64,000 bases of DNA from the NCBI GenBank assembly GCA_914767715.1, contig OU612071.1:3410001-3474000 (forward strand), given 5' to 3'. The position numbers and the translations under genes are program-made. This document shows positions 1-64,000 of this stretch, piece by piece. Positions within the stretch are counted from its first letter, which is position 1. Each line of letters begins with the position of its first letter. Source of the stretch: Membranipora membranacea (taxonomy: Eukaryota > Bryozoa > Gymnolaemata > Cheilostomatida > Membraniporidae). Below the pieces are notes generated by a model. The model was not told the origin of the DNA, did not search any database, and saw only the letters and a program-made list of their open reading frames with translations.

Positions 1-816
1 GTTTGACCATTTTGGTTGTTGTTACAAAACTTTTGTAGTCTTGCATGTGACAAAATGATCTATATTTTACACGATTCTCTGACCATCACTACATATAAGT
101 GACGTCTTTGGCACTTGGTTTGGAGCTGCAAGGCTTTCTCTATGTGAAAATTACCCCCTACCAAGTCCAAAGTTGTTCGTTAAAGTCTAAAATTGAAAAT
201 GCCTAATTTTGTTCTCGATGGTTCTCACTGAAGCCTGTTGTGAGAATATCGACAGATCTGGATTGAACCAGAATGGTACTGGCTCAGTATCTGGTGGAAT
301 ATTTTGAACTACTTGGTTGGCGTTAAGAGTTGCAACATATAGGCTACATTATGGTGTCAAAATTAAGACAATATAGTTTACTTCTCCTGTGGGGTAAGAT
401 GTGGTCATGTGCACTAATAGAGGATGTAGTGACTACCACAGAGGGCTGGTTAGAGGTGTGCACAGAGCCCATATTTTCCTTTTGACCCAGATTGAGGTAG
501 TTATGTCACCACTTTGTGTTTTGGATTATTCATTGCAGAAAAACCATGACCTGAAAGGGTTACAACCTTAAGTTGATTCTAATGCTTGTCCTCACTGCCT
601 GATGTGGAGGTGATGCAGTTCGTTGTGAAGATGGTGCAAGGTGGCCCTTTCTCTCCCTAAGGTGACATTTCAGAACTATGCTCCAAGACACGGAGATAGC
701 AAAGGGCAAATGTGGAAGTGCAAATGTCATGCATAGAAAGTAGGCCTATATGATATTTTTTCTGTCTTGACATTGGAGGCCTATTTATTGACAGTTGAGT
801 TTTGTTTATTTTACAG
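1..816 (+). other. Intron of glutamine synthetase (5' part cut by window)
   Basis: No coding similarity to the missing N-terminal part of glutamine synthetase is seen. It ends in a TTTACAG acceptor before 817. No other feature is recognised. Confidence 0.7.
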
Positions 817-10582: not shown

Positions 10583-13500
10583 GTCAGTGGAAATTAACTG
10601 TAAAGTAGTCTACAATTTAGTGATGATTATGTTGCAACATGTGTTGTCGAAGACCTGGATGGAACTAGTTTGTCTAATCCCCAAAGGACTTAGGTCTTCT
10701 TTGAATAGTATGTATTGCCTGGCTCCTCGGAGAACTGGTCCGCTTAAAAGTCTGAAGAATTGTCGCATTGTAGTTTAAACGTCACTTACGCTATAAATTT
10801 TCGTCTAAGTAAATTCCAATGAGACGCTACAAAACATACTGGTGTCTATTGATAAAAAACTGCCAAAATCTCTCTCTGATTGCTCATAGCTAAATGAGCG
10901 AGATCTGCTAAGGATCTCGTTTCCAAATCACTCACTTATTGATGGAACTACATACATTGTGAGTGAACAATTTGGGAACAAAATTGTTTAATAATAATAA
11001 TAATAATATGAACTTTTATTTCCTATTCAATGCCCCTAAGTTCGGGGCCAATGAGAATATGGTTACATTAGATTGATGATCCATGATACATGATACATAA
11101 GATTGATGATACATGATACATAAGTCATAATACATCTCATCTAATTAGCGCACCCTTGTACAATGTAGAGGTGGGTTAATTGAGACACCAAAATTGTTAT
11201 GATCTTGGGCGAAGTGATTGTGATAACTTGCTTTAAAAAGCAATCCATAATTTAATTGAAAGAGCCCCCTGTTTATCCCACAAATATTTTGTATACTGCC
11301 TCTGGTAGAGCAGCCAATAGTTATACTGAGTACTGATGATTCATGAGTAACCTTTTATCGGTATTTATTTTCCAGCCTGTAGCGGACAGTTAGGATGTGA
11401 TGTATCTCCGTGTAAATTTGGTGGATCGTGTGTAAACCTAGCTACAGAACCATGTAAGACATCTATACTCAGTGATACCACCTCAATTATTATTTGTGCA
11501 CTATGGGTGGCACAGACAAACTATGAATCCTAGCCAATCTTAACAAGCTTTGTTGTGGGGGAAAGTTGGAACAAAGCCTAATCCTCCACAAACAGAGCCC
11601 GTTAGGACAGACTCTAATCCTCCACCTACAGAGCCCGTTAGGACAGACTCTAATCCTCCACCTACAGAGCCCGTCAGGACAGACTATAATCCTCCACCTA
11701 CAGAGCCCGTTAGGACAGACTCTAATCCTCCACCTACAAAGCCCGTTAGTACAGACTATAATCCTCCACCTACAGAGCCCGTTAGGACAGACTATAATCC
11801 TCCACCTACAGAGCCCGTTAGGACAGACTATAATCCTCCACCTACAGAGCCCGTTAGGACAGACTCTAATCCTCCACCTACAGAGCCCGTTAGGACAGAC
11901 TCTAATCCTCCACCTACAGAGCCCGTTAGGACAGACTCCAATCCTCCACCTACAGAGCCCGTTAGGACAGACTCTAATCCTCCACCTACAGAGCCCGTTA
12001 GGACAGACTATAATCCTCGACCTACAGAGCCCGTTAGGACAGACTCTAATCCTCCACCTACAGAGCCCGTTAGGACAGACTATAATCCTCCACCTACAGA
12101 GCCCGATTGTACAGACTATAATCCTCCACCTACAGAGCCCGTTAGGACAGACTCTAATCCTCCACCTACAGAGCCCGTTAGGACAGACTCTAATCCTCCA
12201 CCTACAGAGCCCGTTAGGACAGACTATAATCCTCCACCTACAAAGCCCGTTAGGACAGACTCTAATCCTCCACCTACAGAGCCCGTTAGGACAGACTCTA
12301 ATGTAATGTAGTAGGGAGGAAAGAATATGTATACACCCGAGGGTGCTGGGGGTGGGGCGGAACAATCAACAATGAAAGCTCTCCCAGTGGGACTCGAACC
12401 CACAACTCCTGCGGCACTAATCACCTGGCAGTAAATAGCAAGCGTGCTAACCGGTTTGCCATCTCACCATCCCCGAAAAAATAATGGGTTGATGGCGCTA
12501 ATTAGCGTGCCCGCTATTCACTACTCAGAGTTGTGTTCTCTTCTCCCATAGCTCATTCCACTCCACCGTCGCCACCCTATGCAACACAGTATATAATGTA
12601 GTAGGGAGAAAAATATTATATAAACTCCCAACAATAAGCAAAAAAATTGTACTACCTAACCTTACCTCACCCACTAACTAGCCAAAATAAAGCCTAGATG
12701 ATGTTTACTCCTCTAAGCATGTATACTCAACTCATTATAAGATAATGAACTGTACTGCAGTTATGAATTTGGTTGTAAGTAAACTTTAGTGACACATTTG
12801 GTTATTAGTGTTAGCAAGGAGTAATAGCTCCTTGGTGTTAGTGAATGTAATTTAGGGGGTAGTTATTTTCTCTTCGACATTGATTGGGCAACTCCAAACT
12901 AAAAATACGATTGCTTAGAAAAGTTTATGTTGGCCATCAAACCACCCTCCCTGATCAATCATGATCGTGACATCACCTGTATTGTATTATAAAATTATTA
13001 CCAGTCAATAGGCTTTAGCTCAAGTTCATAGTATAACAAGATCTCACAACATCAGCTCACTCAGTTTAGTCGATAAGGATGTGCAACTTATTAATACTGG
13101 AGTGATCACTGATTTTAAGATTAATTAACAGTATTTATGAAAATGAAAAATTGAAAACTGCAAAAGTTGATTATGAAGATATATGATATGTGAGAGTGAG
13201 ATTGTTATATGCAAATTTTTGATTTAAATGGTTATGTTATTATTTTATTAGGTATAATGATATGATTGAATTTTTGCTATCATATATGTGAATGTGAATG
13301 TTATACTATAATTGTAATGGTATATAATATACTATGATATTGTTTGTACACAGATTACCGATGTGAGTGCCTATCAGAGTACACAGGCTCTACATGTGAG
13401 GACGATTACGATGAGTGTCTCTTACAATCTCCCTGTAGAAACGGAGGATTCTGTGTCAATATCTTCGGAAGTGAGTGATATAAGTTTGAACAACCATAGT

Positions 13501-19500: not shown

Positions 19501-22500
19501 TATATGGATATGTCTTCCGAACCTATAGAATATTGAGATGAATAAAATATGATTAATGATCTCTTCAGGGATGAGCGGTGATGATAATTTGGTTATCTCT
19601 TATCGTGCTCTTCTTTTCTGCAGGAGACGACTGTGATGTGAATATAGATGACTGTTTAGGGATTGACTGTAATAATGGGCAGTGTATAGATAATATAGCG
19701 AGTTACACCTGTCTCTGCTCTGATGGATTTACTGGTAAAGTATTAAATATTGTGTTGCCCAAGATTATTATAAACATAATGGAAATTAAAACTATTTCCC
19801 TTTTTTGCAAAAAAAACTAAGGCAAGACAGTCATAAAATCGGATGCTAAACGACTTTAAAGTATGTCTATTGTTTCCAACAGGGAGTTTGGGACAGTTTC
19901 TGTCCGAGACCATTGGAAATTTGCTTTCCAACAGATTTTTCTTCGGAATTGGGAGTTGTGCTCCCACAAATAGCTACATACAATGAGAGGATAACTCAAA
20001 CGAGGAATCCTGTAGTTTAACCGTTATAACAGCGCCACCTTTCCTGATATCAGCTCTGACGTAGATGATGTCTCTCATGTCTTTTTTGATATTACAGGGC
20101 AGCACTGTGACCAGGATATAGATGAATGCCAGGTACTCTCTCCCTGTCAGAATAATGCTACATGTGTAGACTTGGTAAACTCATACACCTGTCATTGTGT
20201 GTCAGGTTATACTGGAGACACCTGTCAGCATATCATAAACCCCTGTTTATCAGAGCGACAGGAAGGGGCGGAGCTAGAGCAGGAAGAGGTGGAGCTATGT
20301 AAGAATGGAGGGCGGTGTGAGCTATCATCCCCTGGAGAATATCAGTGCGTCTGTCCTGATGGGTGGTCTGGTAAGTGCTAATAAGGCGGGCTGTCTTTTT
20401 ATACAAAAACAAGCGAATAATTGAAAATCCAACTTTCCTTTGTTTTCCGCAAATCTAGGGAACTTGGACAGTTACTTGTGTAGCTAGTGATTAAACAAGT
20501 GAGACGTAACTCAGCCTGCTAAGTGATGCGGGTTTTTCAGTCCATACTTCAGTTAATTTGATTCGGATAACTCTGCATGTTGGCTTATGCTGTACACATA
20601 TATTATGCTAATCCTTTGATAAATGCCTCTGGGTTAGCTGGTCATGCACAGCAGATAAAACATTTTTATATTTATAAACCCTGTACACGTCCTCTACCAT
20701 ACTACACCTTCTTTGTTACAGGCCGACATTGTGAGGATGGGATTAATGAATGTTTGGAGTTTTCTCCCTGTTATAATGGAGCTACTTGTGTAGACCTAAT
20801 CGCAGACTACAGATGTGTCTGTGCTCCTGGGTTCAATGGTGGGTATATCCAATTACTATCAAGAATAAACTCGTCCTTGTATATGATTTTCCAAATGTAA
20901 TTTTCGGAACGTGAAATTTGATATCATTGCAGTAGCCCCAATTCATTCATTCATTCGGACACCAATAACTGCTCAAAAGTGATGTCCCATAAGCAATATT
21001 TTATGACAAGACCGCCACCTTGTGATATCACCTGGGAGACATTGAAAACTTTCTCTGTGCTGGCCTGCATATGTTTTTGTTTGTTTCAATGTTAATGTGT
21101 TGTTTTGATGGGTTAACAGCTGAGCAGATGTGACCAAGGTAAGCGCCTGTCAATGTTGATTTCGCTGCTTATTTAAATGTTAGTTTGATAATCCTTTGTA
21201 CCTTTCTCTAAGACAGATTACTATTGCCAGCTTAAAAACTGGTTGCATTGATTTAACTTCTGTAGTTATTATGAGCTTTAGAACATTCCTCATAGGTGCA
21301 TATTTTGCTCAACAAATTGGGCCAAATATATCAACATCAGTCATCAATGGACATAACGTGTCTCACTTTCAATGTTGTCAAGAAGATTTGATAAACTGCT
21401 GACAACCCAATAACGTGGAGATTTGACTGACCCAGAGAATGAAAGGCTCTACGTGGGAGTAAAAGACACAATGCTTGTAGCTAGAGAGGCTTGGTGACTT
21501 GACCCTTGACCTTGCATGTTTAACAGTGGTATCTGATTCCGTTAATTGCTTTGTTTAAAATGTGTAAGTGAGAGACTGGGTTTAATAACAAATTATATTA
21601 TTTTAGTTACGTCAGCGTTTATGAACAGGCAATACGTTCCGGCGTGATCATGCTGTATTGTGTCTTCCTCCACTCAAACTATTGAGTGCTGTATGAAAAT
21701 GAAACCGTGGCTTATTAAATGCTCAGAAATCTTTTCCGAAAACCTGAGTTTTTTTTATCAACGCTTTTACGTAGACTAGATGCTCCCATTCTGAGGGGTA
21801 TTGCTTCTATAATGTAATGTAATGTAAATATTTGTGTTTGTAGGAAGTCGGTGTGAGATTAACACAAATGAATGTAGCTCATCACCTTGTTACCACCTGG
21901 CCACATGTGTAGATCTACAGAATGATTATCTATGTCTGTGTGCTCCTGGATATACAGGTATGGATTAAATGGGATTTAAACTTCAATCTGAGACCGTAAA
22001 CTCTTAGGCTGATTACCAATGTCCTTATGGAGATGTGAATCAATTACATGCTGATATTGAAGTTTCAAGTCAGAATCGTTTTACAGTCACAACCCACACA
22101 ATGCGGGATGGGTGGCGGTAACCCACACAATGCAATGAACACTTGATATCTGATGTTGGAATCGACGGCGATAATAATGTGTTGCTCTGTTTTCAGGAGT
22201 TGACTGCTCTGTGGATATTGATGAATGTTCAGAGATGCCATGTCTCAACAATGGTTGGTACTCTTATGGGTATTTGTGTTAATGTATTGGATTAAAAGGA
22301 AACGTTTACCTAACACTTGGTATGAAGAAGGCACTTTGTTAGGTTGTTTCTGCTGCTTTTTTCTGATATGACTGATACAACTATGATTAGCTAACAACAG
22401 GTCTCAGGGCATGGTAAAACATGGTCAAAAACTTGATTTGTGTAACTCTCTAATATAATCTATAAACATTGAAGTAGGTATTCTGCCTTCCCTTGGTTTC

Positions 22501-25500
22501 TAGCCTGCCAGCCAGATTGAATATATGACACCACAGTTATGTTAAGGCATGCAGTCGAGAATGAGAGTAAACTATTCACTTGCATTGATACAGGTTCTAT
22601 TTATTTTTTATGACATTATGATGTTAACGCTCTATTTTTACAGGTAACTGCTCACAGCCAGTGCCTGGAGAATTGAGCTGTGACTGTCCAGATGGGATAT
22701 CTGGCCTTAACTGTGAACAGGTGAACTCAGTCTATCTAATCCCCGGGGGTTACATGACTGTCCCAGTATCAGCAGGAGCAGAGGCCACACAGGATATGAT
22801 GTCATTATCATTTACATACAAAACATTCAGACACAGCGGAGTACTACTCTCTATATCTGAGGTCAGTATGATTGTCATGTATTGTATGGAGAGGGTTCTG
22901 ACTGAGTCTTGAAAGTTTGTCTCAAAATAGCAAATATGGCTTGCTAACCGCCGCGCAACATAGTTAATTCATTAAAAAATATCTAAGCCTTGCCTCAAGG
23001 GATATCAATATTTTTTTGTCAATGCAGTAACTTACATAGGTCTGAAATGTCCTAAGGATAAAGAAAGGAACCTAAATATTGAATTAGTGAAAAGGTAGAT
23101 ATGAATCATGGGTAAAGAAAAAGAATTTTGGTTTGTCAGTCTAACAACGTAAGGTGTTACAGAGTGTTCAGTGAAGTTGTCCACTAAACAAGTCTATTGT
23201 AAGTGAAAAACTTCTAAGAAGTTCAACAAGCAACCAAGTGCAGTATTCCAATAAAATGCTGAAGAGCAAGCACAGACCTTTGTTGATTACCCAACTTTGA
23301 CGTATAGGCCTTTATAGAAGCATTTAAAGTTTGTGGTAATATTGTACTGTTATTTATTACTTAAATATCAATAACTTTCTCGTCAAAAGCTTTCACACAA
23401 AAGGTTGGATTAGAAAAAACCTCAAAACAAAACAGGCAGTGACTAGAATGTATCTAATTGTAACCAGCTGGTTTTATCAGTAAAGTTGAGTATTTTCAAA
23501 GTTAGTCTCTCGGTTAACTATATTAGATGAGCATTGGTATCAGGTGTGGATGGTGTTTTATATTTGGTCGATGTTCGGTGGATGTCTCTGGTAGTTTGGT
23601 GGATGTCTCTGGTAGTTCCGTGTTGTGGTTGTAGTTCTGTGTCGTGGTGAGGAGGGGGGAGGGGTGTCGATATATTACCAAGGCTGACAAGGAGACTCAG
23701 GTAAATCTCTACTGGTGTCACATCTACGGTCTGAGGTACTACAAGAGAACTCTGCCTCAGCAATCGCTCCATTCTCAGAGCTGGAACATTTACACTTCAT
23801 CAGCTAAAAAAAGATGAAAAAAACATGAATTTAGGTGGAAATAAAAATGCAAGAATGTGTTGATCATCCCTGAGAAGTGGATTTAGTTGACTATTCCACT
23901 TTGTTTGTGAAGCCAACGCATCGAAACAATAGCCTATAAATCTGATTTATTTGCCCCTGAAAGAATCTGGAATCTCCATGTCATGTGATACAAAAATACA
24001 GAGAGTGGGGGGGGGGGGGTAGCAGACAAATATATTGTGTGGTTCTAAGTTTCTTAAAGTTATGGTTATTTTATCATAAGGAATATGATTAAAATCAGGT
24101 AGCGATTACTTTTGCATAGACAAGAGATTTAAATTTAATGACCAAACAACTACGTAATATGCCATCCATTAAAGCCACATTGAATTTACTAATTCGCTAT
24201 ACACATCCACTAATATAACATTTATGATAGTAACTTACGATTCCGATGCCACTGACAGTTTTCCACTCAGAGAGACAGCTTCCCCAGGCTGCCTCTGTAG
24301 GAGTTGACTGTAATAGGACAGCTACAGCAAGCACTGCGCACATGAGAATTACTTTGCTGTTCATTCTACAATCATTCGAAAATAATAATAATAAATAAAA
24401 AGATATTATGAAAAAAGGTTATCTCACATTCACAGGCTCGATTTTACAATAATGATATCTTCATTTATAGAGTTGAAGGACTTATACACTCACATTGAGC
24501 AACTTACCTGTGATGTCAAATTTGCGAACGCCTTGATATAATATTGTTATGGGTTTCATAGCCCTTACATAAAGTGAAATAAAATAATTCACATAATAAT
24601 CGTATTTAGGAATCTAACTGAGAAGTCTATCCGAAACAAAAGAGTTTAATCTTACCTGTTTGTTGATGGAATCCTCAGAGGAAATGTGAGCTGGTCGGCT
24701 TGTAGAATGGTTGTGTTGATTCCGGTATACACGTCTGCCCTATTTATACCCTCCAAATCAGGGCCATTATGATTAATAACTTTACGTAGAATCACAAACC
24801 TTAAATTATCCATCAGTGAAAGTCAGACAAGCATAAATAACACAATATGAGATACCATGGGACACTTTCACATTTCAAAGTACTCTATGTTGATAACCCA
24901 TCAGCATGTCATCAGCAAGTTATAATTTTTATTCATGTGTTTAATGATGGCCCTAAAGGTATTTATGTTCGAGTACCTTTAGTTCTTCAGCAGCTTTCAT
25001 GCATAGAAAGAGCCTGCAAAAGGTACACTCTCCATATAGTGTGATGTTAGATCATAATTACATTTTATAAGAGGATAATTAATACATAGTGAAAGTGCAG
25101 ACAACCAGTAATCTATATTTACATGGAACATGAGAGGATAATTACTGTTGTCTGTTAACATATCGTAGGGTGGACAATTACAACTCTGCATTTGTTGAAA
25201 TCACAAGTATGCTTAATGACTACTGTTTATTTGAGGCTGCTCAAGTACCTGCCCACATGGCTCCTTGGATAGTCTACTTGAGGATGTATGTATTCACTCT
25301 CATCATATGATAATTATTTCCACCAGCTAAACCATAAGATAAACAGATAGAGCTATTATTGTGATGTTCATCTAGTGCCCCCAAACAAAACAACTATGTC
25401 TGGCTGCTAAATGGTACCACAGTGACAGCGAGTGATATCCCTCAGTGATGTCATGAGGAGATTATTTTAACATCCATTCCCTGTGTTTATCATGAAAGCT

Positions 25501-28500
25501 GTTGCAGGTACTATGAAAATCAGAGTATGAACACTTGATGATGTTGTGGGATTGAATCATGATTTATAATCATGTTTGGAATGGTTTGAAAAATTTTTGT
25601 GTTTTCTTTAAAATCCTGTCATTACTCGCGAGACAGTGTTTACAATTGTGAAAACAAACAGCTAACATATGATCGATGGTAATATTGATGACAAAATTTC
25701 ATGTTCATTTATTGATCTAAGCTCCGCCACTTTTATTCGCAGGCTGCCATAATTACTCATTCAAAAGCTGATTCAAATGGGTCAATCTTACCCAGCGAGA
25801 AAATGATCTCATTGGTTAATTAATCAACAATGACAGGATTTTTATCGCGGGAAACTTTGAAAGGCTTTGCTTATGGAATATCATTGGTTGATAGCTACCC
25901 CGATAACATCTTCCTGCGTTTATACACGCTTTGTGTGCAATGACAAATCGAGATATAATAAGCAAAGCAAGAATTTCAAGCTGTATTTTCTCCTCACTAA
26001 CTTGAGGCTTAATAATGGGGCTCAATCTGCAACTATTAAGAATTATCATTCCAATCTTTTTCGAGTTAAAAAAAGAGACATTTCGCCCTGACTGACAAAC
26101 TGAGAGGTGTAGAACTAAGAAATAGTATTAAGGCAACCTATCTATCATTTAATTGCTGTCAAAGTATTGCTTTTGGTGTCTCCTGGACTAACAAGGCCCA
26201 GAGGTTTGTGTTTTGGTCAACATACCATAAACCCTATCTTAGACTGTCCTGGAACATATCATATCTGACTTTATCTGCCTTTCAATAATTTCCGCTCATA
26301 TCAGATTTATTAACCATAGAGATCATTTTATTGCTGGACAAGATTCAGCATGTTGAATCTGTTGTTGAACGAGGAACTATAGCAGCCTGCGATTAACAGG
26401 GGCCGAGATTAGACCACAAAGTAAACAACTCTTCTTGTGATGGGCTTATTGCTAGTCCATTTGCATACCGCTTAAGGTAGAGACACGGGGGTCAGCAAAT
26501 ATCCACTTTCTGATATACATCGTTGGAAAGCTGCCGAGCTTCTGATCGCTAAGAGCTCGTCAGAAATGTGATTGGATGACGTTGCGCCATTTTATCAAGG
26601 GAATGAGGCCAAAAAGGCTGTTTTTAGCAAAGCGTATGGCTGAGCTAATTTGATTGCTAGAAATTTCAAAACAGGTTATAATTATTCTTAGAGGTATAGT
26701 TCATCCTTATTTTTGGTTGAAATAATATATGATGCGCCCAAAGTTGCTTTTTACGTCATATCATGTGAGTGATTTTTTTAAATTTGAGGAAATAATGTGA
26801 AATTTTAAGCAACGATTTGAGAAAGATTGAAAAAGTAATATCCAATTTTTTTGCTAATTTCCATTGAAGGACTAATTAAATAACACACACCCAAATGTTC
26901 AGCAGTATAAAAAATTTATCAAGGTCGGCAAAGACCATCAAAGGTAGATACATTTTGCGTCATTTTTCCATACCGCCAAACATGCCGTCAAAATGACCAT
27001 TACTTAGGCCAGAAATTTATTTTTGAAAATTCTCACGTACGAAGCCGCTTTGATTAAGCATAGTAAAAACAGGGAATGCCAACAGAAAATGGCCCTGCCT
27101 ACCAGTTTTCCCCGAATTGCGCGCGACAGAATGCCCAAAAAGGCCAATTGAAGGGGCTGTTTTAGGTGTTTTTTTGGCATTCTGTGGTGCGCAAAACTGA
27201 CACGCAGTGCAATTTTCTGTTGGCATTTCCTGTTTTGACCATGCTTAATCAAAGCGGCTTCATATGTGAGAATTTTCAAAAATAATTTTTCTGGCCTAAG
27301 TAATGGTCATTTTGACGGCATGTTTGGCGTTATGGAAATATGACGCAAAATGTATCTACCTTTGACGGTCTGTGCTGATCTTGATAATTTTTTTATACTG
27401 CTGAAAATTTGAGTGTGTGTCATTTAATCAGTCCTTTGGTGGAAAATAGCAAACAATTTGGTTGTTACTTATTTGATCTATCTCAAATCGTTGCTTTAAA
27501 TTCCATGTTATTTCCTCAAATTGAAAAACACACATCATGACGTGACGTAAAAAGCCATTTTGGGCGCATTATATATTATTTTTAACCAAAAATAAGGATG
27601 AACTATACCTTTAAGAATAAATATAACCTATTTTGAAGTTTAATTTTTAAAACCAAATAAGCGCAACCATACACTTTGCTAAAAACATTTCCTTGATGAA
27701 ATGGCGCAACGTCATCCGATCACATTTCTGACAAGCTCTTAGCGATCAGAAGCTCGGCAGCTTTCAAACGATGTATATCAGAAAGTTGATATTTGCTGAC
27801 CCCGTGTCTCTACCTTAAGGCTAATTAATAATGAGATTCAATTGGCAACTACTAAGAATGAACACCTCCAATATTTATTTGCGTTAAACAACATTTTCTC
27901 CCCAACTGGAAACTGAGAGGTGTAGAGATAAGAAATAGTATTGAGGCAATCTATCTTCACATATGTTTTGATGTTTTGATGTTTGTTTATTTAGACATTT
28001 GCGGTATCACTCCTAAAAAGGTTGACAAAATTGAAATGTTTACATAAAAATTGATGGAAAAATATTGCACTAGTTGAAAAATCTCATATAGAATTCAAAA
28101 AAGCTGTTCTGCCGTTTTACAGTGCGGCATTTGCTGGGTCGGTATTTGTCGATTACTGCTTCACGGGCGGATTTTCTTTGAGTGTTAGGTGTGATTCTAT
28201 TGTTCAGCGGATGGGTATTATCGGTTGAAATATAAATGCTGTCAAATTGTTGCCCTCCTGAAAGACAGTTTTTGGTGTCTACTGCACTGAGAGGACTCAG
28301 AACAAAAACAAATTTAGGTATTGGTGAGGCTAAGAATGTTAAAGGTTACAAAGTTTTCAGTGGTGTTGTCTTCTCAACAAGTCCGTTGTAAATGGATAAC
28401 CTCCCAGTAATCTTCCATTTAGTATGACAATAGGAACTAACAAACAATAAGTTGTTGAGTCCGAATGGTAAGAATCTGTGTGTATCAAGTCCAATAGCTT

Positions 28501-31500
28501 TCCTCATTGGTTAGTTAACATAGACATATAGGCCTATGTTTCCAAGTATTAGAAGTATTTCAATTTGAAGTGTATTCAACTCACTCGGTTGTAAGATTGA
28601 AATATTATTTATTGCATAAAAATTGAGAAGTTTCACTACAGAAAATAATTATCACAGAAGTTTGTGTTAGAAAAACCTCTTTAACAAAACAGGCTAGAAT
28701 ATGTCTGATTATAATCTGCTGCTTTTTATGACTAGATATGAGTATTTTCAGAGTTAGTCGTTTATTTAAAGTAATCACTAATTACATTATGTGAGCATTT
28801 ATATCAGGTATGAATGGTTGGTTATGTTGTGTCGATGTTCGGTGTATGTCTCCGGTAGTTCCTTGCCATGGTGGGGTGTAGATTTTATTAGCGAGGTTGA
28901 CAGGGGGATTCTGGTAGATTCTTACTGGTGTCACATCTACGATCTGAGGTACTGCAGGAGAACTCTGCCTCTCCATTCTCTGAGCTTGAACATTTACACT
29001 TCATCAGCTGCAACAAAAAGGTAAAAAAAACCTGAGCAAAGGTGGAAATAAAACTGTAAAAATGGATCGATAATAGCTGAGGAGTGGTTTTACTTAACTA
29101 TATCATTAGATTTTGTTTGTGGAGGCCAACGAATTGAAAGAGTAACATATAAATATAAACTTGAATGTTTAATCGTGTTTCATAATTCTTATGATCGAAT
29201 AGTATGATCACTAGCATTCTCTTGCTTTTGCTTGATATGAGAGTTGCACTATAAATGATCATGAAAATGTGGATATGAGATGAACATTGGAAACGCGACT
29301 TGAAATATTTATGATAATAACTTACGATGCCGATGCCACTGATAGTTTTCCACTCAGAGAGACAGCTTCCCCAGGCAGCCTCTGTAGGGGTTGACTGTAA
29401 TAGGACAGCTACAGCAAGCACTGCGCACATGAGAATTACCTTGCTGTTCATTCTACCATAGAAAGGGGCAATAATCACCAACAACAGGTTTATTTTATAA
29501 TATGTTTATGACAATAATGATCTATACAATGACAATAAAATGAAAAAAAAACAATTAAAAACATAAATAACAAAGGTAATTTTACCTCCACAGGCCCAAA
29601 TTTTAAATATTGATACCTGCATTGATAAAACTCATGGCTATAGGACTTGTCAAAGTCAAAATCAAGACTCTATTTTGATGTACACAATAGGAAGAGTTTT
29701 ACACTTACTTGTTTGTTGATTGAATCCTCAGAGGAGATGTGAGCTGGTTGGTCTGTAGAACGGATGTGATGAGTCTTGACTAGGCGTCAGCCCTATTTAT
29801 ACCCTTGGGGTTGTCACATAATGATGAAGTATTTCACGCAGAATCACAAAACTCAAATTATCAAACATTGAAAATCAGACCCCATGATTTAAATAACAAG
29901 ACACAACATGAGGGGCTATGGTTTTTATTATCATAACTTCAAGTTCTCTACCATAATAACTCGATTGAAGTACTCTATTAAAAGAACCCATCAGCATGTT
30001 GTCAGGGAGCTGTAATTTTGTTTAATGTGTTTAATGATGGCCCTCAAATTATGTATGTTTGAGTACCTTTAGTTGTTCAGCAGCTGGAAAAGGTACTCTC
30101 TCCGTACAGTGTGATATTAGATCATGATTACATTTTATAAGAGGATAATTAATACATAGTGAAAGGGCAGACAACCAGTAATCTATATTTACGTGGACCA
30201 TGAGATGATAATTACTACTGTCTGTTACCATAATGTAGGGTGGACAATTACAACTCTGCATCCATGGAAATCGTAAGTGTGCCTAATGACCACCTGTTTA
30301 TTTAAGGATGCTCAAGTACCTGCCCACATGACAGTAGGGAGTAGCTCCTTGGGAAGACTACTTGATGTTGCTTTCACTCGAATCATATGGAAGTGATTCC
30401 TATGTGTAATTATTTCCACCAACTATGAATTGTTAGCTCTAGACCTAAACCGATTGCATAGAGCTATTTTTGGGAGGTTCTTCTAACACTTCAAACAAAA
30501 CAATAGATTACTGCCTGGCTGCTAAATGGTACCGGCATGACATAGAGTGATGTCATGCAGAGAGTATTTAAACATCCATACTCCAAACCTTGTATTTATC
30601 ATGTAGGTTGTTGTGGGTACTATAATTTCAAGAGTGTATAAACACTTGAATTTTGTGTTTACTTTAATATCATGTCAGTACTTGTGTGACAGTGTTTACG
30701 ATTGGAAAAAGAATCTGCTAGCATATGCTCGATGGTATTATTGATGACATTAGTAAACAAATTTTTGCTACTAACTACAGTTCTGGTATGGCAACTTCTT
30801 GACATTTACTAGGTTCAGGTCTTTGGAGGTGAAGGTTTGTTTTGCCGATTGACATACTGGCCATATGATGTTAAATTTAAGAAAGTTTCATTGAAATTCT
30901 CTATGACACGGTTAATGTTGCTGTAACATAGAGATTGGTGCCAGTCAACATTGCTGAAATATTGGTGTATATTTTCATCGGTAAATTTGCTATAATCGTT
31001 GAAATTTATCTTAATTCTTTTCTCTGATTTTACAACACCCTTTTTTCGTATTGCCATAACCAAAAAATGATCACTTAAAGAGTATTTCAGAACTAAGCTA
31101 GAACGAACATTGGCTGGTTGGTTGGTGTATATGTGATCTATGCTAGATTCAGAATTTTCTGCAATTCTTGTAAAATCCTATATTAGTTGTGTAAGTCCAA
31201 GTGGTTTTATGACATTTCTAAACCACCTGACCAATGTGCTGTTATGACTGAGGTCAACATTAAAATCACCCAAAATGATTACTTTTCTGCAAATTGAGAC
31301 AATGTTCTCGATGTAATGAGTGAAGACATGGTTCCAATCAACAAGTGCGCTAGGTGTGGCCGATAAACGAAGCATGTTAAAAAAGATTGTGAGTGGGTTT
31401 GGGAGATTTTCAAAGTAATTGACTCAGGCATTGAGTGGTTCGCAACATTGACCTCTTCAAATGAAATACCAACACGTATGTAGCATAGCAAACCCCCTCC

Positions 31501-34500
31501 TTGACCAGTAATTCCTATCCTGTCTTACAATATTATAGTTTGATATATGAAAAAAACAATTTGATTTAGACTCATTTAGAAAAGTCTCGGATAAACAAAA
31601 AATATCAAGATCATTTTCATGTAAGCCTACAGTATATGTAATTTTAGTGTTCAATAGTTTCATGCAGACTTTCCCAATTTGTTTCTAAACCCAATGAAAC
31701 ATTCATTGTAAAATAACCAAGGAAACTGTATAGAGAGGCTCAATGAAGAAGCGGTGACTGACATAAATTTGCTGGTTTGCCAAGCCCTTTTTTAATTTGA
31801 ACCATTAAAGTTATCCAGACAAACACATGATCATAGCACTTAAACTACATAACATCATGACAAGTCATGTGACTTGCAGGGAGGGTTCAAAATTGCACGT
31901 TTTTATTTGTAGGGAATTTTCTCCCCAAACTAATATCTAACCTTATCTTATGATTATAGTGACCCACAAAAACATGCATCAAACCAAGCAAAAGACAAAA
32001 TTGAAAGGAACATACGGCTATATCTCAGCAAGGAGTTAGCATGTACCTCCAAAGGCAGAGAGGAGTTAAAACGAGTTATCCTCTCATGTTAATTTAGTTT
32101 CGACCAATCATATTGGGGAAATTCGACACATCCCTATTTATGCAAATGAGGAAACAGTCTGAACATAAAATGCTTATTGTCACGTGACCACCCTCCTTCC
32201 CTCTAACTCCTTGTTCTCAGCGATTTATGAGAATCCACCCCTGACTTCACAGTATATAATAACAGACATTGATGTTTATAAAGAGAAAGCATAAAAAGGC
32301 TGAGTAATTAACCCCTATATATGATTGAAACACTTGCTGAAAAGCATTTGTGGGCTATTTAGTTAAGAGTGAAAAATAATGCCCAAGATGACATCAGTTT
32401 TGATTGTCTGATAGCATTATCATAGTGGGACATTATGACTCCTGTATGATGCAGTATTATGTTATCACATGCACACTATTTTACTCTGCAAGTATGATAA
32501 TACCATCGGAAATGCTGTTTGTAACTGTTGACCTGAGATTGTCAAATTTAATAAACTTAAAAATGGCTACTAGCACACTGCTGACTTAGGCCAACCTTAA
32601 AATAAATAGAAACAAACATCATCAGGCGGTAGACTAAGCAGGTGGCTACAAAGTTTAAATTTTGCATAACTGTGATAACAACCATGAAATCTTGTTACTG
32701 ATTTCCACCCATGGAAATCTATTAAATTGATCACATAGTTGTGAATCAAAAGCAACTGCTCAGATTAGGAATAATTATCAGATGAATTACCTTACAAATC
32801 TCCGTTCCTTGATAAGGAGTTAACCCTGAAGCCTATAGAGACCAAACCGTCTGGAATTTATTGATCTGAATTCTATTTAGTTGCACTTGAAGGTGAATGC
32901 TGCTGCTGCTACATTAGCAAATTGTCATACAATGATAACCCTCTAATTTGTTTAGTATAATATGCTATCAGTAAGGATATATATCCTTACTCTGTGATGC
33001 TATCATGGAGAATGTAAGTGCTGTATTGAGGGCACAACTCCAAAACGAAATTAAGATCTTTTTACAAAAAGAGGCGTGACCTATAGAGCGCAGGCTCCTC
33101 CTTCTTCCATTCTCCCTGATGCTATTGGACACACCAGATCACTGACAGTTTCTGATAGTACTCATTTAATGAGTGCATGGGCAAATACCACTGGTAAAGA
33201 TTTCTAATAACATGATTAATTAATTATGATCTCATAATCATTGCAAATATAGGATGCAATACTGCTATTTAATGCACATCTTTGTGGCCTGGCTTGTATT
33301 TTACATGGGTTCAGGGTTAAATACTGGTATGAAGAAGGATACTTGAGCTGCCCAACTTTGTCACACTATGAAAGTAGACAGCAATATTTAAACATGATCA
33401 TCGCCGCTTTGCTGCAGATTGGGGGGGGGGGGGAAAGAAACAGGAACTGATAGTTGATACCGTATATTTAAAAGTCTTAAGATATTCTAATTGATACCTC
33501 TATCGTCTACAAACAAGTACTTGTTTATAACCCAGTAGTGTCAGCGACTGTATTATTTTCAAATCAGCATGTTGGGTTAAAGTTGAAGATTTTAGCATGA
33601 TTTGATTTGGCGAGCTGACTTATCAGCCACTACCTTACAAATGTAATCTGATTTATCATGCAAAATTCATGTTGTATCGACCAGACTACAAAGCAATGAT
33701 GACTTCATGCATGAAAAACAACTGATTTCAATAAACTGCCAAGATATTTTATTCCTGCAAAATTGACAAAAAGTTAAGAATCAGGTGAAGCAATTAAATC
33801 ATCTAAAAGCAAAATGATGCCAAGTGTTATTATTAAATGAATGACTAGATTAGAAAAATATGATGTCTCCTTCAAAATCTCGAGGATATGTAGGTTTCTG
33901 TGAGTTCCCTGTATTATCGGGTGAAAATATTCATGAGTGTGGTGTGTCATATCTTCGAGGTTGACATATTAGCGAGATTGACAGGGGGATTCTGGGAGGT
34001 CTTTGCTTGTATCACATCGTCTGTCGTTTGCTCCACATTCAAAAATAGCCTCTGTTCCATCATTGGAGCTGCACCGACATCCCTGCAGCTGTAATTAGAC
34101 ACAATGGTTCTTGCAACATTTTTGCTGTCTTTGTCACAAAATTTTCCAGTGATATGTCTGATGATCTCAATGAGTCTGAATCATTTATGGTGTTGCGAGA
34201 TTTGGGTGGACCTACACTTTGTAAAGGATACCTCAGAAGGCGTTACTTGATTTGTTTCATGCAAAATAATTAGCCCTATCACAATACCAATTAGCAAAGA
34301 AAATTGAAAGGAGTAAGTTGTCAGTAAGGTGGACCAGGATTTTAAAACTTAATCATCACAAAGGTCAGGGTGAATCAACTGGGCGAACTGTTAACTGTAA
34401 ACGAGAGCTTGAATATGATCAAATCACATTAATTATGGTTTAGCATTGAACTAATAGGGCCTTCTAAATTTTAATGCCGTTCTATCGGTCACCAAGGGCG

Positions 34501-37500
34501 GCCAAAGATTTGCAGATATCTGTTCTAATAAAAGGCCTTCTACTGATTATAAGGACTCAAGACATTAAATGCCAGTAATTTGTTCTGCCTGTCAGAAAAG
34601 CATCAAGTGGATCATCAGTTAATTTGTAGACACTCACTCATCAAGATGATGATATCATGTTTTCAGCTTATAATTTTAATGCGAATGAATAACCATATCA
34701 TCATTCCCAAATATTAGACACCATTACTGGTGTATTGGACCAAAAAATACACACATGTCAGCAAATATAACATTGATGTTGATAACTTACGATTCCGATT
34801 CCATTGACAGTTTTCCACTCAGAGAGACAGCTTCCCCAGGCTGCCTGTGTAGGGGTTGACTGTAATAGGACAGCTACAGCAAGCACTGCGCACATGAGAA
34901 TTACTTTGCTGTTCATTCTACAATAAAAGTATCGAAATTCTTATGAATGAAAAAATAATTCTAGCTGTTAATAATGATCCATACACACTTATGAAATGAT
35001 AATAACATAAAAGAAATGGCTATAATAGCGAAAATCACTAAAATGATACAGATCTTAGTCCTTTGCCCTGTACAGCATTAGTAGGAAATACATGTTGAAG
35101 TGTTTCTCACTTTTACTGAGCAAGCAAAACAGATCTTTTGAAATCTGTCAGCAGCCACTGAATACGTTGATGGAAACAGCGAGTTGATCGCAGATTTTAA
35201 ATGACAAAAAATGTTAGTAACCAAGCCTACCTGAGGGTGGTGTAGTGAAATCCTTAGAGGGAGTGAAGATGTTCTGTTTAAATCCTGAGAGGTGGTTGTG
35301 ATGATACTGATCCCGACCTGACTCTATATATACCCCCGTGGTAGAATATGGGGAGGTGGAAACACTCGAGTACTCAACAATCGTTACCCTATAGGTGTGC
35401 CCCAAAATGCTCAAGATCATAGCCTAGGTACCAGGATCGTTAAAAGGATTGAAGAGGAAGGATCGCCTCCACACGCTCCCTAAAGTTTGTGTGCCTTGCA
35501 CACTAAAGAAATGCGCATTTTGCTGTCAAACGTAATGAAGTGTTATATGGATTATGATTATATAGTTGAGTCCTGACAATTCAACTTGTTCACTTTGTAT
35601 ACCTCACAAATAATGACCCACCTTCCTCACGAGTCAATAATTACTGTTTTGTAAACCTGAGGATTTCACACCATGTAATTTATTGTTATATCCAGATTAA
35701 TAGGACACCATTAGGACAGAGAATCTTTCCCCTATCCAAACCAAACTAAGCATGCAGTCATGACATAAATCCCCTCAGATAATTACCCCTAGTTAGATGG
35801 ACAACATTCTTTACAGGCTTTACTTTACCTTCATCTGATGGGTTAAAGTATCATAGTTTGACAGGATCTGTGGTTGGCTCAATAAGTGTTGAGATTATAG
35901 TAATTGTAGCAAGGCATATTTCAGTTGTTGACAAGTACAAGATGCGAATTGAAACGACAGTATGCTCTCTGCATGTATAGGTCTGGTAGCTACACAATTG
36001 AAAGCTGAAAATGAACCCGATTCGGGTGTGTCATCAAGTTTATGTAATATTTTGATTTACCCAATTAACCCACTTGCTGTGTATCAATTGTGGTTCTACC
36101 AATATCACAACAGATTAAACAACGATCCTGCTCTTTAGTCTATGAGATAATCTATCACTGCAGGTGATTACTCGATGGAAAGATCTAACTTTGCCCTAAA
36201 CGTTAATAGAAGATAGAGGAAACAAATTGAATAACAACTTCAAAGGAACAACTGGCTTCATGTTTTGCTTTGCGAAGTGAATATAGTTTTATTGTCGAAA
36301 ATACCAACAGTGTAGTGAAAATCAGCCAGATGAAGAGAAATCTTTTGGTGATGTCACAAAAGTAGCAACACGTTATGCCACAGAAATATACATCAGTAGT
36401 GCTCTAATAGATTGTGTTTGTTTGTTTGCAAGTATATAAAAAAGACTTCTTAATGATCACATGACGGCATGTTGTGGCTTCGACCACATTCAGTTAGTGC
36501 TGTTTGGTCTCGAAAATGTTAAACTCCATCCCGTAATGCAACCTTACATAGACAAAGAAATTGAATTCTCAGCAGAACATAGTTCACTGATGACTCAGCA
36601 AATCACCTATGGTATTGCATTATGGGATAGTAGCTAACAAATCCTGATTTCACTACATGTTAGTACAGTGTTAGAGGGTTGTGAATATAATATCATGTTG
36701 TTAGAGTTTTGTAGTTAGAATTTTGTTGTAAGAGTTTGTTGGTTGTTAGAGCTTTGTCTTTGGGGTTTGTTGTTTTGTCGTGAATTGTTCGGTGGTAGGT
36801 CGGTGTGTTAGGGTTGCTTATTGACATGGAGACTGAGGAGGGCTCTTGGTCACATCACATCTCATATGAAAACTCTCACATGTGAATATACTCGTCTCTG
36901 ATCCAGAGGTACACTGGCAACTTCTCAGCTAGAAAATAATAGTACATCAAATAATAGATACTGTATAATTAGCTCATAGCTCCATCTAATGTTCGGAATA
37001 AAGAAATGTGTTGTGAAATGTAAGATGGTGCTTTTACTAGACCATTACGAGATTGCACTGATAGCCAAGCATGATAATAAGTTGCATTACCCTGCAGTTA
37101 TTTGCGACAGCTAAAATTCATAATACGACAGGCATGTTTGTCAAAGTCTACAGAAGACAGTGTTATCCTTTCCAAGGGAGAGGATAATAAGAAGGCCATT
37201 TTGTTTATCTGCAGTTATCACAAACAAACTATAAAACAGTTTCTGTCGTTTGTTCTCTCGTAACCTCAATTGCAACAAATAACCGAATCGTGACAATTAA
37301 CTGACCGGATCAGGAAAGCATAATTATTTATTTACATCTTACAATGGAAACGCCTTCTATAGTCTCCCAGTTAGAGAGGCAGGTACCAAAAGCTGCGTCT
37401 GCGCCTCCAGATTGGTACATGACCACCAGGACTACGAGTAGAGCTGACAATACGGCTATCTTCATCCTGTCTAAACATAATAAAAAAATTACCATCCTGA

Positions 37501-40500
37501 TCCTCAAAATCTTCAGCCTCGTCACAACGAAAGTACCATATCAGTAAAACATTTATCGGTATTTATGCCAGAAAAATCAGATTGAACATTCTAGTAGAAA
37601 GTTTAGTGGTATTGATATTCTGAAGACTGCCAAAGCCAAACATTACATGTCAAGCCCTCAGCATAGAAGTATAAGTTGACATTGAGATTGCCCTATATTG
37701 GCTGGCTGTAGGCGAAAAATAAGACCCCTAATAAAATTTCATACCAGGTTAAAATGATTAAATGTTCTACCATTCTTTTTAGCAATATTATGCACCCGGT
37801 TAAAAAATTTTGTTGCATATGAACATCTCTGGAGAGAGGGTTTTAAAACTAGACAAAAAAACGTATTGAAATACTCACTTTATTTAGTGGTGCAGAGTAT
37901 AGTACACAGTCTGTGATGGTCTAAGTCAGGTTTGGTGCTGTGGTCACTGACAGACATGCCTTATATACCAGTCTGGATGTTTTTACCTCTTGAGACATAT
38001 CGGCTGAACACTCTTCAGTCTGGACAGCGCGCTCAGACATGACAGGAGACATCACCTAAGTCAATGGCATAAAAATAAATCAATCGTAATATTATTATTC
38101 AAGTGTGGGTGGTGTAAAATTGGTATTATGCAGCTAAGTTGTTTTCTAAGTATTTTGTTTTCTTCACATAAAAATTTCAACATGCCACTTTAACGAGACT
38201 TTTGGAGGTTTAAATGCATAATGATTCGCGCATGCCAAATTAAAAACATCAAAATTTAGACCCAGAATCAGCGCCAGTCTGCTCTATTTCATTGATCAAT
38301 TCAAATTTGATCACCATATAGGCCTATAAGCTGTTGATGCTAGTACCATAGTCCCTCAGAGTTTAAAACTAAAGTGAAGTAGCATTATTTATGCTCTTAT
38401 TTATCTCATGCTCTATCTGTTTTACTGTGCGTTTGTATTGTTTATCAACGGAATTTCATAAGGATTAAGATTTCAGAACTATGTCCATTGGGTTTTCATC
38501 TTGGATCAACTATATGGTGTGACTTGTGATGGTCATGTTAAATTATGGAGAATGTTCTTCTACATGTATTCGAGTAAAAAGCATTTTATTAAAAAATACG
38601 TACGTACATTTATGATGATGACCGGTGATAAAGCACGTCATTAATCTTATAACAGGGAAGATAGCATACTCTTGTCCCGTCAAGACCCTGCGTTTCACAC
38701 TTTGAAATTGGTTATATCATTCAAATAAGTCTTTGTGCAAGCAAATTTAATTTTCTTGTACATTGCTATGAGGATACTTTGATATGGGCAATGGTTGATT
38801 TTTGCTTTCCCAAACACTTTAAATTCAGAGTGCCGAACTCTAAAACACTTGTCTATAAGGATGAAATGGCGCGTCAGCCTGGCTGAGCTGTCACATCTTC
38901 ATTATAGGCAAGATAAGAACTTCAAGTCTCTCAGTATGAGTGGACCCCACTTCTACTACTGAAGAGTCTAAGTGGTGATGTCTGCAGCTCTATGGTAGAG
39001 AAAGCCTAAATTTTAACCTGGGAATAGCGCAGCCAGTTCCATCATGGTTCATTACTCTCATGCAAATTTTGTTTATGGTTGCAAGGCACCCTTTGTATTA
39101 TAATTTTTCTCCCATATCATATCCCATATCCTATATCATTAGACCTTTTACCCAATGATATCACAAAAGCGACCAATCACAAAATAGGCTTCGTAGTAAA
39201 ATGCAAAATATCTGATTGAGATCGCAAATATACAATTATAACTCTGGCACATGCAGCCTGTTGTTCTGCGTAAAATTTCAGACTTCTTCATCTCCATGGC
39301 TTCAATACATAATTAAAATCTCGAGTCATAGCTTGGGTCTCTTGGTGTTACTCACAGGAGTCCATACATAAGAGACACCTGCATGGCTCATTAGAGGTGC
39401 CAGCTTAATCAGGCAGCTTAATCAGGCCAGTTTGACATCCCTTATTGTCTTCTCAAAACCTCTCCATGCTGAGTGCATGGTAGACTGGTTTAAAGTTAAT
39501 AATGGCGTCACACGTCTATACTGTCCTCACAAAAGATTATATAGTAGATCTTTTGCTCATTTCTCCCTTAGATGTTATAACTAGAATAATGAAGGTTTTT
39601 CTTCAATGAGTGGATCATTCCGATTGTCTTTAAAAAATTTAAAAAACATGCGCCACTGTTATCTAGCTGAGTAAGATGAATATGTTGAGGAAATCTTCTG
39701 TCTATTGGGGGGAGGGGGAGGTGTAGCGGTAGTTTGTTTATAACCTACAGTTTTTGCATAGAATTTAAACCCAGAACTATAGCTGTATAATTTTGCTACT
39801 TGCAACAATTAGCAAAGTAAACACACCAATAAATTGATCGTCTAGAAGGCGGTAGTTTATAGGAAGGACTACACATGTTTGCTCCCAAGCCCATACCACA
39901 TTCTGTGAATCAGCCCGTATATCATTCCTGTGCAGAGATAAAACTGATATCCACAGCAAGCGCATTGATATTTAACTCAACATGGTCCATGGATACAAGT
40001 GTCAGAAACTATAATTAAATAAACAAAACTAAATTTTCTATATTATAGATAGTCTATATTTTTTTTAATCTCTTTTAATTTTTTGTATTCATATTATAGA
40101 TGATGGAGACAGGGCAGCCAAGACTACTTCTAGTTGAGCTGATCGATGCTAATAGTGTGAGAGTATTTATCGAAACGGGATCTGGACAAGCGTCCCTCAT
40201 TCAACGCAGAGCTGGTAACAGAATTCAGGTTACTATAGGAAACAACGGGATAGCCTTGACACAGCCTCCTAGTGTGTTTACCGAAGATAGCTCTGTAAAT
40301 GGTGAGAGATTAATTGCTGAGTTTTTGTATCAGTCAGCTTTGACTATTAAATGGTAGTAACTGAGGGAAGAGAGTCTATTCTTATATCATCCGTCCAAGT
40401 TGGTACTTCTATAAAACGCTATGCCCTCTGTGGATGTATTATTCAGTTCAGTTAGGTTATGTAACTCACCAGTGGTCCCTAGTTAGTATTGCATAATTTG

Positions 40501-46500: not shown

Positions 46501-49500
46501 CTAGTTTATTTGATCCTCAGGGTAAAATTGTAGGACTGAATAGCATTTTTTACACAGTCATAACTTCGCATGGATAATTATCACTCTAAATAGAGTACCA
46601 TCTACCTTTCAGCATGTCAAATGACTATTATTTGTGGTTCAATGATTCAGTCCCCCTTTCTTGAGATGCCCAAACCTGTAATAGTATCTAAATACTGACC
46701 TGTTTGTGGTTTTATAGGGAGTTGACTGTATCGACAGTATAGATGACTGTATAGGAGTTGACTGTAATCGTGGATCTTGTGAGGATGAGCATATTGGCTT
46801 CCGCTGTGACTGTCAGATCGGATATACAGGTATGTATGACTTGTAATATATAAATATGTGATATGGGGAGTGGAGGTATGAGAAGTGCTAACATATGACA
46901 GCTTGCTGAACTAAATGACTGTTGAAATGTGTTTAATAATACAGACACTTCAGACATATATTTTGAGGAAGGGGATTGGGCCCATGTTTCTGATGGAGGA
47001 TTGACTGACTTTCTAAATAATATATGGAACAAATTAAAGATCTGTCGTACGGGAAATAACAATATGGTGGGAAAGCTAACCCTTAGCCGGCCAGGGTTTG
47101 GACTTCAGGCTAACAATCCCAAGCGAAACAAACTCGCCTTAAATGAGCAGACAGAGAAAGGGTAACTCCTGGATAATGAACTTCTGCAGACTAGCAACTG
47201 TCAGAGCTTAGGCATACAAGCTGGAACTAGAGCCAGACCTTGTAGCGGATGCATTTATATCTGATAGAATACTTTGTTTAGCGGGATGATTTTGCCCTCC
47301 AAGAAGATTAAGAGGGATGCGACCGGACCTTGAACTGTTTGAGAGGTGTATATCCTATTTAAGGCACGCCAGAACATTGACAAAAAATGGTCTATAAAGC
47401 CTCTATGTCATCAAACTTATGATAATCAGGACGACGTTTCAACCAGAAAATTGAAAAAAATGGGGATTGGACCCAAAGCGCCCTCTTCAACTGTCTACTG
47501 AGCAACGGGAATAATATTTGCATAGAGTGGAGGGAATAATGGTGAAATGAGATTTGATTTAGGTTTGTGTACGGTATAAGATTATGTTAGGTGTGCTGTG
47601 ACACCACAAATTCTCATGAAGACAGTGTAGACAGGCTCACCAACGAGCTGGCAACAAAAAAAGATTTTGGTAGAGCATTGAGAGTTACTGCTGAGAGAAA
47701 AACCACGAGAGAAAAAAAAGGCCGAATCTCTCTGGATGCGGAAAGACCCACACTCACACGCAAATTACTCATTCTCTACGAAGATATTACTGTAAAAGGT
47801 TTTACAGCAGCACAAAAAGATATAATAATATTCAGATTGGACACTGAAATGCACTTAGTGAGATTTATACAACAAATGTGATACAGTGTCTGTGACAATA
47901 ACATAAGATGGTGTGGCCGTCTTAATATTTGATTAGATGCTGATATTTTCCATGATTAAATGCGGATATGATAAATATTGATGATGTCCATGGTATTGAT
48001 TGGACAAAATATATGTACTTTTGAAGCCCTTTATAATATAATGAGTATTTGCTCCACAGGGTTGAAGGCAGGAGGGATAATCACTGACTTTGATGTTTAT
48101 GTAAATATGATTTAATGGGCTTATTAGATAACCATGTTCTGAAGCATCAAATACTAGCAGCCTAGCAGACTGCCTTAAATATTAGCCTCAAAACTATCTC
48201 AAGAATACAAATATTTGATGGGAGTTGTTTCCTCCCTTGTTTTCCAGCAAAATTATATCAAGTTGTTGTCTTTTCTTAGGTGATTACTGTGATGCTGAAG
48301 TATTAGCCTGCGAATCCTCACCTTGTCGTCACAATCAGACTTCGGAGTGTATAAGTACCCCACCCCTCAAGTATACATGTGTATGCTTGGCTGGTTACCA
48401 TGGTGACATATGCGGCCTTGACATAGATGAGTGTGACTCCGCCCCTTGTCTCAATGACGGAGTCTGTACAAACCTTGTGAACAGGTATGATAGCCCTCTG
48501 TACGGTCTGAGAATTGATACCAATATGAGTGAAAATTCATCCAATGTTTCCTCACAATTTGGTCGGAAGAGAGAGGCACTATGCTTACCTAAACCCTTCC
48601 TTGTTTTGGCAAATCTAGTGTACAGGTTCGGCTGTTCATAGTTACTCTTGAGTAGAGATTACACTTCATTATCACTTCATTTAGAATACAACAGGACCAG
48701 GTCTCGGTTAGTATAACTGCGAATGTGAAAGTCTCATACTGTATTAGGTTGTTTAGGCATCTGTACTGTGTTATAATTATTAATCATTTGGTCGCAGCGT
48801 TTGTAATGAGTAGTTTCCTTTATTCCATTGCGGCTGCACTGATTTTGATTTTCAGATTTGCATGTGACTGTAAACCTGGATGGGAGGGTGTTACCTGTCA
48901 GATTAATACTAACGAGTGCCTGATTAACCCATGTGCAGGTAACTCTCAGTGTTTAGATGAAGTGAACGGATATACCTGTATCTGCTCTCCAGGGCTAATT
49001 GGTGAGTTTTATGTTGTCTCGGTTAGTACTGAGTTTACCGCTTGTTGGCTCGCTTTGTAAAAAATTCAGTTATCAGTTTGCCATACCTATCACAAAAAAT
49101 ATCTTGTTATTTAACTGATTCTGAAACCAATAGCTGAAACAGTAAGGTGAATAAATATAGCTCAGATTTGGATTTTGTTACCTTGTTTTGCGAGTAATTA
49201 TCGCTGACAACCAAACTTTAAGATTAAGTCTAAGGACTTGGCCAATGTATTGAGTGAACTCCACTTCTCTTGAGATGGTATCTGATGAATAATAAGTACA
49301 AAATTTAAATCAATGACTGACATGTAAATTTCAGGTGATGACTGTAGTATAGATATACAGGAGTGCAGTGAAGAACCGTGTTTATTTGACTCGCTGTGTA
49401 CAGAGCCTGAACCTGGTGAGTGTGCTTACTTTACTGTATCTAACGTCATGTAGGTGCTGGTTACAGTCGCTAGTATTAACTGTACTTAGCCCAAACTTAA

Positions 49501-63911: not shown

Positions 63912-64000
63912 GTAAGTTGGCTGACAAATACTAATAAGGCTGTATATATGAGCTACAGTTTACTGTGTTTTAAGTCTTGTTAAGTGACAGCCTCGGAGGA

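Follow-up and report, generated by a model that had tools for sequence, protein, structure and literature searches.

Four small antisense genes for probable six-cysteine peptides in a long putative intron of the bryozoan Membranipora membranacea

A stretch of 64,000 nucleotides from the bryozoan Membranipora membranacea (assembly GCA_914767715.1, contig OU612071.1, positions 3,410,001 to 3,474,000 of the forward strand; here called the window) contains four small tandem genes that lie antisense within what appears to be one very long intron of a larger gene. What these genes encode, how their exons have come to differ so much in their conservation, and whether any known family includes them are the questions raised by this locus. 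The explanation considered likely here is that they make up a small family of secreted peptides, probably restricted to one lineage and duplicated in tandem inside the host intron, with one coding exon homogenised by gene conversion. Small orphan peptide families of this type are common, and nested antisense placement is ordinary; interest is raised by the confinement of the homogenisation to an exon and by the absence of other copies of that exon found in the genome. The genes would add a peptide family to the phylum Bryozoa, where a term search of an open library (titles and abstract beginnings) listed none of such kind, and a compact cluster in which near-identical exons lie beside strongly diverged ones offers a tidy case for measuring gene conversion at the scale of an exon.

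Gene models, predicted peptides and constraint

Four complete genes, designated g1 to g4, were found on the minus strand in 22000-40500, with the strand read and the gene models then computed. Their coding regions, their TATA boxes and the inferred host intron are as follows.

22862..40099, plus strand: inferred host intron holding g1-g4 (GT donor at 22862, AG before 40100, frame continues)
23675..24364, minus strand: coding region of g1 (exon 2, 24364-24239; exon 3, 23803-23675), 84 amino acids (aa)
28888..29451, minus strand: coding region of g2 (exon 2, 29451-29326; exon 3, 29007-28888), 81 aa
33969..34916, minus strand: coding region of g3 (exon 2, 34916-34791; exon 3, 34088-33969), 81 aa
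36818..37465, minus strand: coding region of g4, the most diverged (exon 2, 37465-37343; exon 3, 36928-36818), 77 aa
24743..24748, minus strand: TATA box of g1, picked from three TATA-like matches
29796..29801, minus strand: TATA box of g2, picked from three TATA-like matches
35327..35332, minus strand: TATA box of g3, picked from two TATA-like matches
37962..37967, minus strand: TATA box of g4, from a motif scan

The TATA boxes were picked for their position upstream of an untranslated first exon, which was read by eye together with its GT donor and has an only approximate 5' end. The coding intron of each gene is in phase 0, has GT-AG borders and is 318-702 bases long. The signal-like peptide is encoded in exon 2 together with the initial 17 residues of the mature part; exon 3 contributes 36-42 codons and a stop, with five of the six mature cysteines (as read in the g1 row). 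A first-pass annotation of this DNA had proposed four tandem minus-strand genes that each comprise a TATA box, an untranslated exon, a signal-like exon and a second coding exon, and all of these elements are borne out in g1-g4. In the 500 bases that precede each chosen TATA box there is no kB site, strict or loose; no 8-mer is common to all four promoters within about 300 bases, and Rfam at gathering thresholds gave no match in the window.

The precursors of 77-84 aa have predicted mature parts of 53-59 aa with six cysteines, arranged as C-x15-C-x-C-x(n)-C-x6-C-x10-C, where n, read from the peptides, is 14, 11, 11 and 10 in g1, g2, g3 and g4, respectively. The mature parts share the start A-[WF]-G-[ST]-C-L-S-x-W, and 32 columns, including the six mature cysteines, are invariant across the four. 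Both the framework, with its variable spacing of 10-14, and the aromatic-Gly-x-Cys-Leu-Ser-x-Trp start that had been claimed for the family can be seen in every peptide. The calculated charges of the mature peptides at pH 7 are -2.25, -0.25, -2.25 and -2.17 (g1-g4), that is, neutral to acidic. Judged by eye, there is no propeptide between the signal and the first cysteine and no C-terminal glycine for amidation, and the sole dibasic pair, RR in g1-g3, adjoins a cysteine inside the mature part.

We infer transcription, secretion and disulfide bonding. Each gene would have a TATA promoter of its own and be read antisense to the host gene, its transcript then being spliced; each precursor would be cut once by signal peptidase, after the A of A-[AT][WF]G[ST]C or beside that point, with no propeptide; and up to three disulfides would hold the mature 53-59 residues in the fold of a neutral-to-acidic extracellular effector.

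That g1-g4 might instead be pseudogenes or artefacts of gene prediction seems extremely improbable in view of the four intact frames, the matching splice sites, the relatives found outside the window (described below) and the pattern of substitution between g1 and g2. In exon 3 of this pair, 12.5 synonymous changes in 23.7 sites stand beside 3.5 nonsynonymous changes in 93.3 (dS 0.91, dN 0.04), and the exons differ in length by 9 bases, whole codons that keep the frame. With dN so far below dS and an indel that preserves the frame, exon 3 of g1 and g2 is under purifying selection on the protein. Hidden Markov models (HMMs) of the two coding exons recovered exactly g1-g4, which were their training rows as well as their matches, among 2,914 six-frame pieces of the window (E <= 2.3e-25 for exon 2 and E <= 7.1e-22 for exon 3), with the next-best pieces at E 0.39 and 0.93, respectively.

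Homogenisation of exon 2 and relatives beyond the window

The degree of identity among the four genes varies sharply along their length. The blocks of near-identity around exon 2 are these.

34753..34924, minus strand: homogenised block around exon 2 of g3, 172 bases
24201-24372, minus strand: partner block of g1, 92% identical to the g3 copy
29288-29459, minus strand: partner block of g2, 88% identical to g1

Identity between g1 and g2, which are part of a repeat unit about 5.1 kb long, is 80% over the 600 bases that precede the TATA box and 64% within the second intron. Against g3, second-intron identity is 0.48-0.49, and the flanks of g3 and g4 show 0.37-0.46 in every pair, upstream and downstream, a level taken for background. 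In exon 2 of g1, g2 and g3, 17-20 of the 20 bases in each 20-base bin are identical from the ATG to +140, whereas the two bins that precede the ATG score 3-14 of 20; across g1-g3 the identity begins at the ATG and fades about 15-35 bases beyond the donor. At synonymous sites g1 and g3 differ by 2 changes in 30 sites in exon 2 and by 21 in 24 in exon 3 (indicative Fisher p 8e-10), and g2 and g3 by 4 in 29 and 20 in 25 (indicative p 1.3e-6). There is no comparable homogenisation of g4.

Exon 2 is near-identical at synonymous sites too, but exon 3 and the introns, compared with g3, stand near background, a pattern that suggests exon-sized gene conversion as the simplest reading of the near-identity among g1-g3. 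The cluster would have grown by tandem duplication in the host intron, with g4 the most diverged member and g1 and g2 the youngest pair, in their unit of about 5 kb. Conversion would hold the signal exon of g1-g3 nearly identical as exon 3, which specifies most of the mature part, diverges.

Sequences from outside the window show how far exon 2 may vary. A profile of g1-g4 run against 5.77 billion proteins found two relatives among 59 candidates, and the profile widened with those two found four (P0001-P0004) among 26 candidates, on contigs of 1.1-2.0 kb. In each, exon 2 runs on into the residues V-S-T, an ending that fits read-through translation across the GT donor, and two carry extra residues ahead of the Met. 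Compared with g1-g3 they show differences at 8-14 of 42 residues, counts slightly inflated in the case of P0003, which seems to hold a one-residue insertion; among g1-g3 at most 3 of 42 differ. With the external pieces differing at so many residues, exon 2 is not frozen at the protein level. A search of the same collection with exon 3 gave no candidate by a method that requires shared 5-residue words, which distant relatives could escape, and among viral contigs 40 stretches fit a pattern and 0 encode a relative.

In the bryozoan's own genome, of which 339,339,785 bases in 18 contigs were covered, the exon-2 block of g3 used as a DNA query found 3 places, and exon 2 of g1 used as a protein query found 4 places at E <= 10, which are g1-g4 themselves; all lie within the gap of 17 kb. 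As g4 was recovered at 44% identity (E 2.8e-4), a further exon-2 copy of comparable similarity would probably have been detected.

Several points weigh against this account of the cluster and qualify the confidence placed in it. The signal-like peptides and their cleavage points were judged by eye. Synonymous divergence in exon 3 is undefined (saturated) for the five pairs other than g1-g2 (g1-g3, g2-g3 and all pairs with g4), where dN is 0.44-0.69, so that selection is measurable in g1-g2 only. In that same pair the contrast between exons is weaker, with 4 synonymous changes in 29 sites in exon 2 and 12 in 24 in exon 3 (p 0.007), and all of the Fisher values are indicative only, the counts having been rounded and the sites not being independent. 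Constraint on exon 2 at the nucleotide level could imitate conversion, producing near-identity at synonymous sites of the kind seen in g1-g3. Finally, the own-genome search scores only its best candidates and used exon-2 queries only, which leaves room for other distant copies.

Two apparent mobile elements lie between the genes. A large imperfect inverted repeat at 26488-27803, between g1 and g2, whose arms reach 255 bases and are 87% complementary, has the look of a palindromic transposable element. At 30815-31684 on the minus strand, between g2 and g3, a decayed endonuclease-like region in broken frames gives an Exo_endo_phos match of E 0.012 (15.8 bits, below the cut-off of 24.5) and belongs, by our reading, to a probable non-LTR retrotransposon.

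Known families and possible roles

The four proteins gave a single Pfam row at E 0.18 and no match in NCBIfam; among PDB sequences g3 alone gave no match, and the best row for the profile of four was at E 0.63 (threshold in all of these searches, E <= 1e-3). A term search of an open-access library found no description of such a peptide family in titles and abstract beginnings, which is weak evidence of absence. Taken as sequences, g1-g4 probably represent a new, apparently undescribed six-cysteine peptide family of ordinary kind. The first-pass annotation had suggested that the framework may be undescribed and had named a profile search for a known family as a check; the searches of Pfam, NCBIfam and PDB returned nothing credible, and the suggestion is supported, with the four exon-2 relatives and the purifying selection on g1-g2 beside it.

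Another possibility is that these peptides are fibronectin-type-I-like (FN1) domains, reduced at the N terminus, in which W-x11-C-x-C-...-F-x-C would correspond to the second half of a small matrix- or protein-binding module. FN1 modules have four cysteines, paired C1-C3 and C2-C4, and their second half shows Trp, C-x-C and aromatic-x-C in the same order as g1-g4. An FN1 entry, 2ec3, is the third of 3 rows in the PDB profile search (E 2.1), and hhalign against a single FN1 template gives a P-value of 0.01 but a probability of 4%; there is no Pfam FN1 match. With a local HMM built from nine modules taken from PDB rows, the score of g2 is reached by just 15 and 14 of 1000 cysteine-preserving shuffles in two runs, but those of the others are reached far more often (g1, 48 and 63; g3, 426 and 450; g4, 222 and 221), and with three families tried, g2 alone is unconvincing. 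Full shuffles reach the scores of g1-g4 in 16, 3, 226 and 73 of 1000 cases. The first cysteine, moreover, is displaced, lying 3 residues from the Trp as against about 12-14 in the FN1 modules used, and g1-g4 have two extra cysteines. With g2 alone standing out from the cysteine-preserving shuffles, g1 marginal and g3 and g4 not distinguished, statistical support is inconsistent, homology to FN1 is unsupported, and an origin from such a domain is improbable.

Resistin-like (RELM) and von Willebrand C (VWC) proteins resemble g1-g4 in being small, secreted and disulfide-rich with a Trp near a C-x-C, but here the scores of g1-g4 cannot be told from those of cysteine-preserving shuffles, 622, 504, 109 and 480 of 1000 of which reach them for RELM (profile from three rows) and 674, 683, 623 and 528 for VWC (profile from one). 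Homology to either is likewise unsupported, and by sequence the family appears to belong to none of the three.

For role and cell type, we infer, tentatively and with somewhat less than even confidence, a protective secretion of surface, gland or body fluid as first choice over a ligand or a venom-type peptide. Classical cationic antimicrobial peptides have a net positive mature charge; that of g1-g4, at -0.25 to -2.25, leaves this reading unsupported. The acidic charge, together with purifying selection, disfavours the stock antimicrobial and venom readings alike.

It is doubtful that the peptides are secreted ligands that signal, like hormones or growth factors, through a conserved receptor, but this reading agrees with the strength of purifying selection on exon 3 in the g1-g2 pair and with the non-cationic mature peptides. 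Echinoderm orphans of similar size with six cysteines, Arnp11 and Arnp15a/b, have been proposed as neuropeptides; in the passages of PMC4772807 that describe them, they are predicted to be secreted, with 47-57 residues, and their precursors include probable acidic spacer peptides. By description, which is the only level of this comparison, they are like g1-g4 in predicted secretion, size and cysteine number and differ in the spacers, which g1-g4 lack. Speaking against ligands, the lack of a propeptide and of an amidation glycine, and the burial of the only dibasic pair in the mature part, are joined by the divergence of exon 3, which in g3 and g4 is just 62% and 39% identical to g1 and would be unusual for one ligand.

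Venom-type or chemical-defence peptides are unlikely. We know of no delivery organ for venom in M. membranacea, the libraries searched yielded no matching family, and in the one measurable pair, g1-g2, diversifying selection was not seen. Anemone neurotoxins, to go by the title of one reference, have reportedly undergone concerted evolution. Tandem duplication with homogenised parts does recall the toxin clusters of sea anemones, among them the putative toxin cluster SA8, to which ShK-like spacing is attributed in the relevant part of PMC10210398. Compared by description only, both are tandem arrays of small genes for cysteine-rich products that are or would be secreted; the differences are the ShK-like spacing of SA8 and, in g1-g4, the homogenisation of the signal exon and the nesting of the cluster in another gene. 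A broader proposal, possible but speculative, is that g1-g4 are a bryozoan-restricted family with a disulfide fold of its own and its whole genomic complement in one intron, in which exon-sized conversion keeps exon 2 uniform and exon 3 diverges, giving one secretion module for several effectors.

The host gene and neighbouring features

The gap that holds the cluster is 17,238 bases long. Among 46 gaps between hand-picked coding pieces, whose limits are approximate, the median is 359 bases and the next largest 2,725, so that the host intron, its boundary set by eye, is about fifty times the median gap and not roughly ten times the length of the others as the first-pass annotation had it. On the plus strand, EGF matches lie on either side (E 2.2e-16 at 20016-20378 and E 1.9e-6 at 48219-48638), and two joined pieces score 23.2 and 24.0 bits for Laminin_G_2 (cut-off 22.9), with 16.6 bits on a third; 3 of 7 host pieces had no match at E <= 0.1. 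As a point against continuity, the exons joined across the gap gave no laminin-G match in Pfam and no PDB match, and no domain model spans it, so that the putative intron rests on a consensus in-frame splice and on the EGF and laminin-G pieces to either side. In Crumbs proteins the cytoplasmic tail is short and carries FERM- and PDZ-binding motifs. The window ends (base 64000) near a hydrophobic stretch, no cytoplasmic tail was found within it, and the tail that would decide the name probably lies beyond. The EGF and laminin-G content on one strand fits the earlier description of the host as Crumbs-like and makes that label no more than plausible; the pieces may form one continuous gene.

Protein genes on the opposite strand within an intron are known from other animals, and about 6% of Drosophila melanogaster genes are intronic according to the passage on nesting in PMC3786989. 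The present case differs in having four paralogues in a single intron, and the genome search revealed no other copy of exon 2.

Three other features were noted along the window. A 65-base tandem repeat (7.0 copies, 97% matches) at 50165-50624 lies between host coding pieces, and a 36-base minisatellite (20.1 copies, 95% matches) at 11578-12302 accounts for the long open frames there on both strands. Upstream of the host, frame pieces of a glutamine-synthetase-like gene extend along the plus strand at 792-5400, recognised through PF00120 at 4703-4948 (E 2.9e-5, 23.7 bits against a cut-off of 24) and elsewhere by eye.

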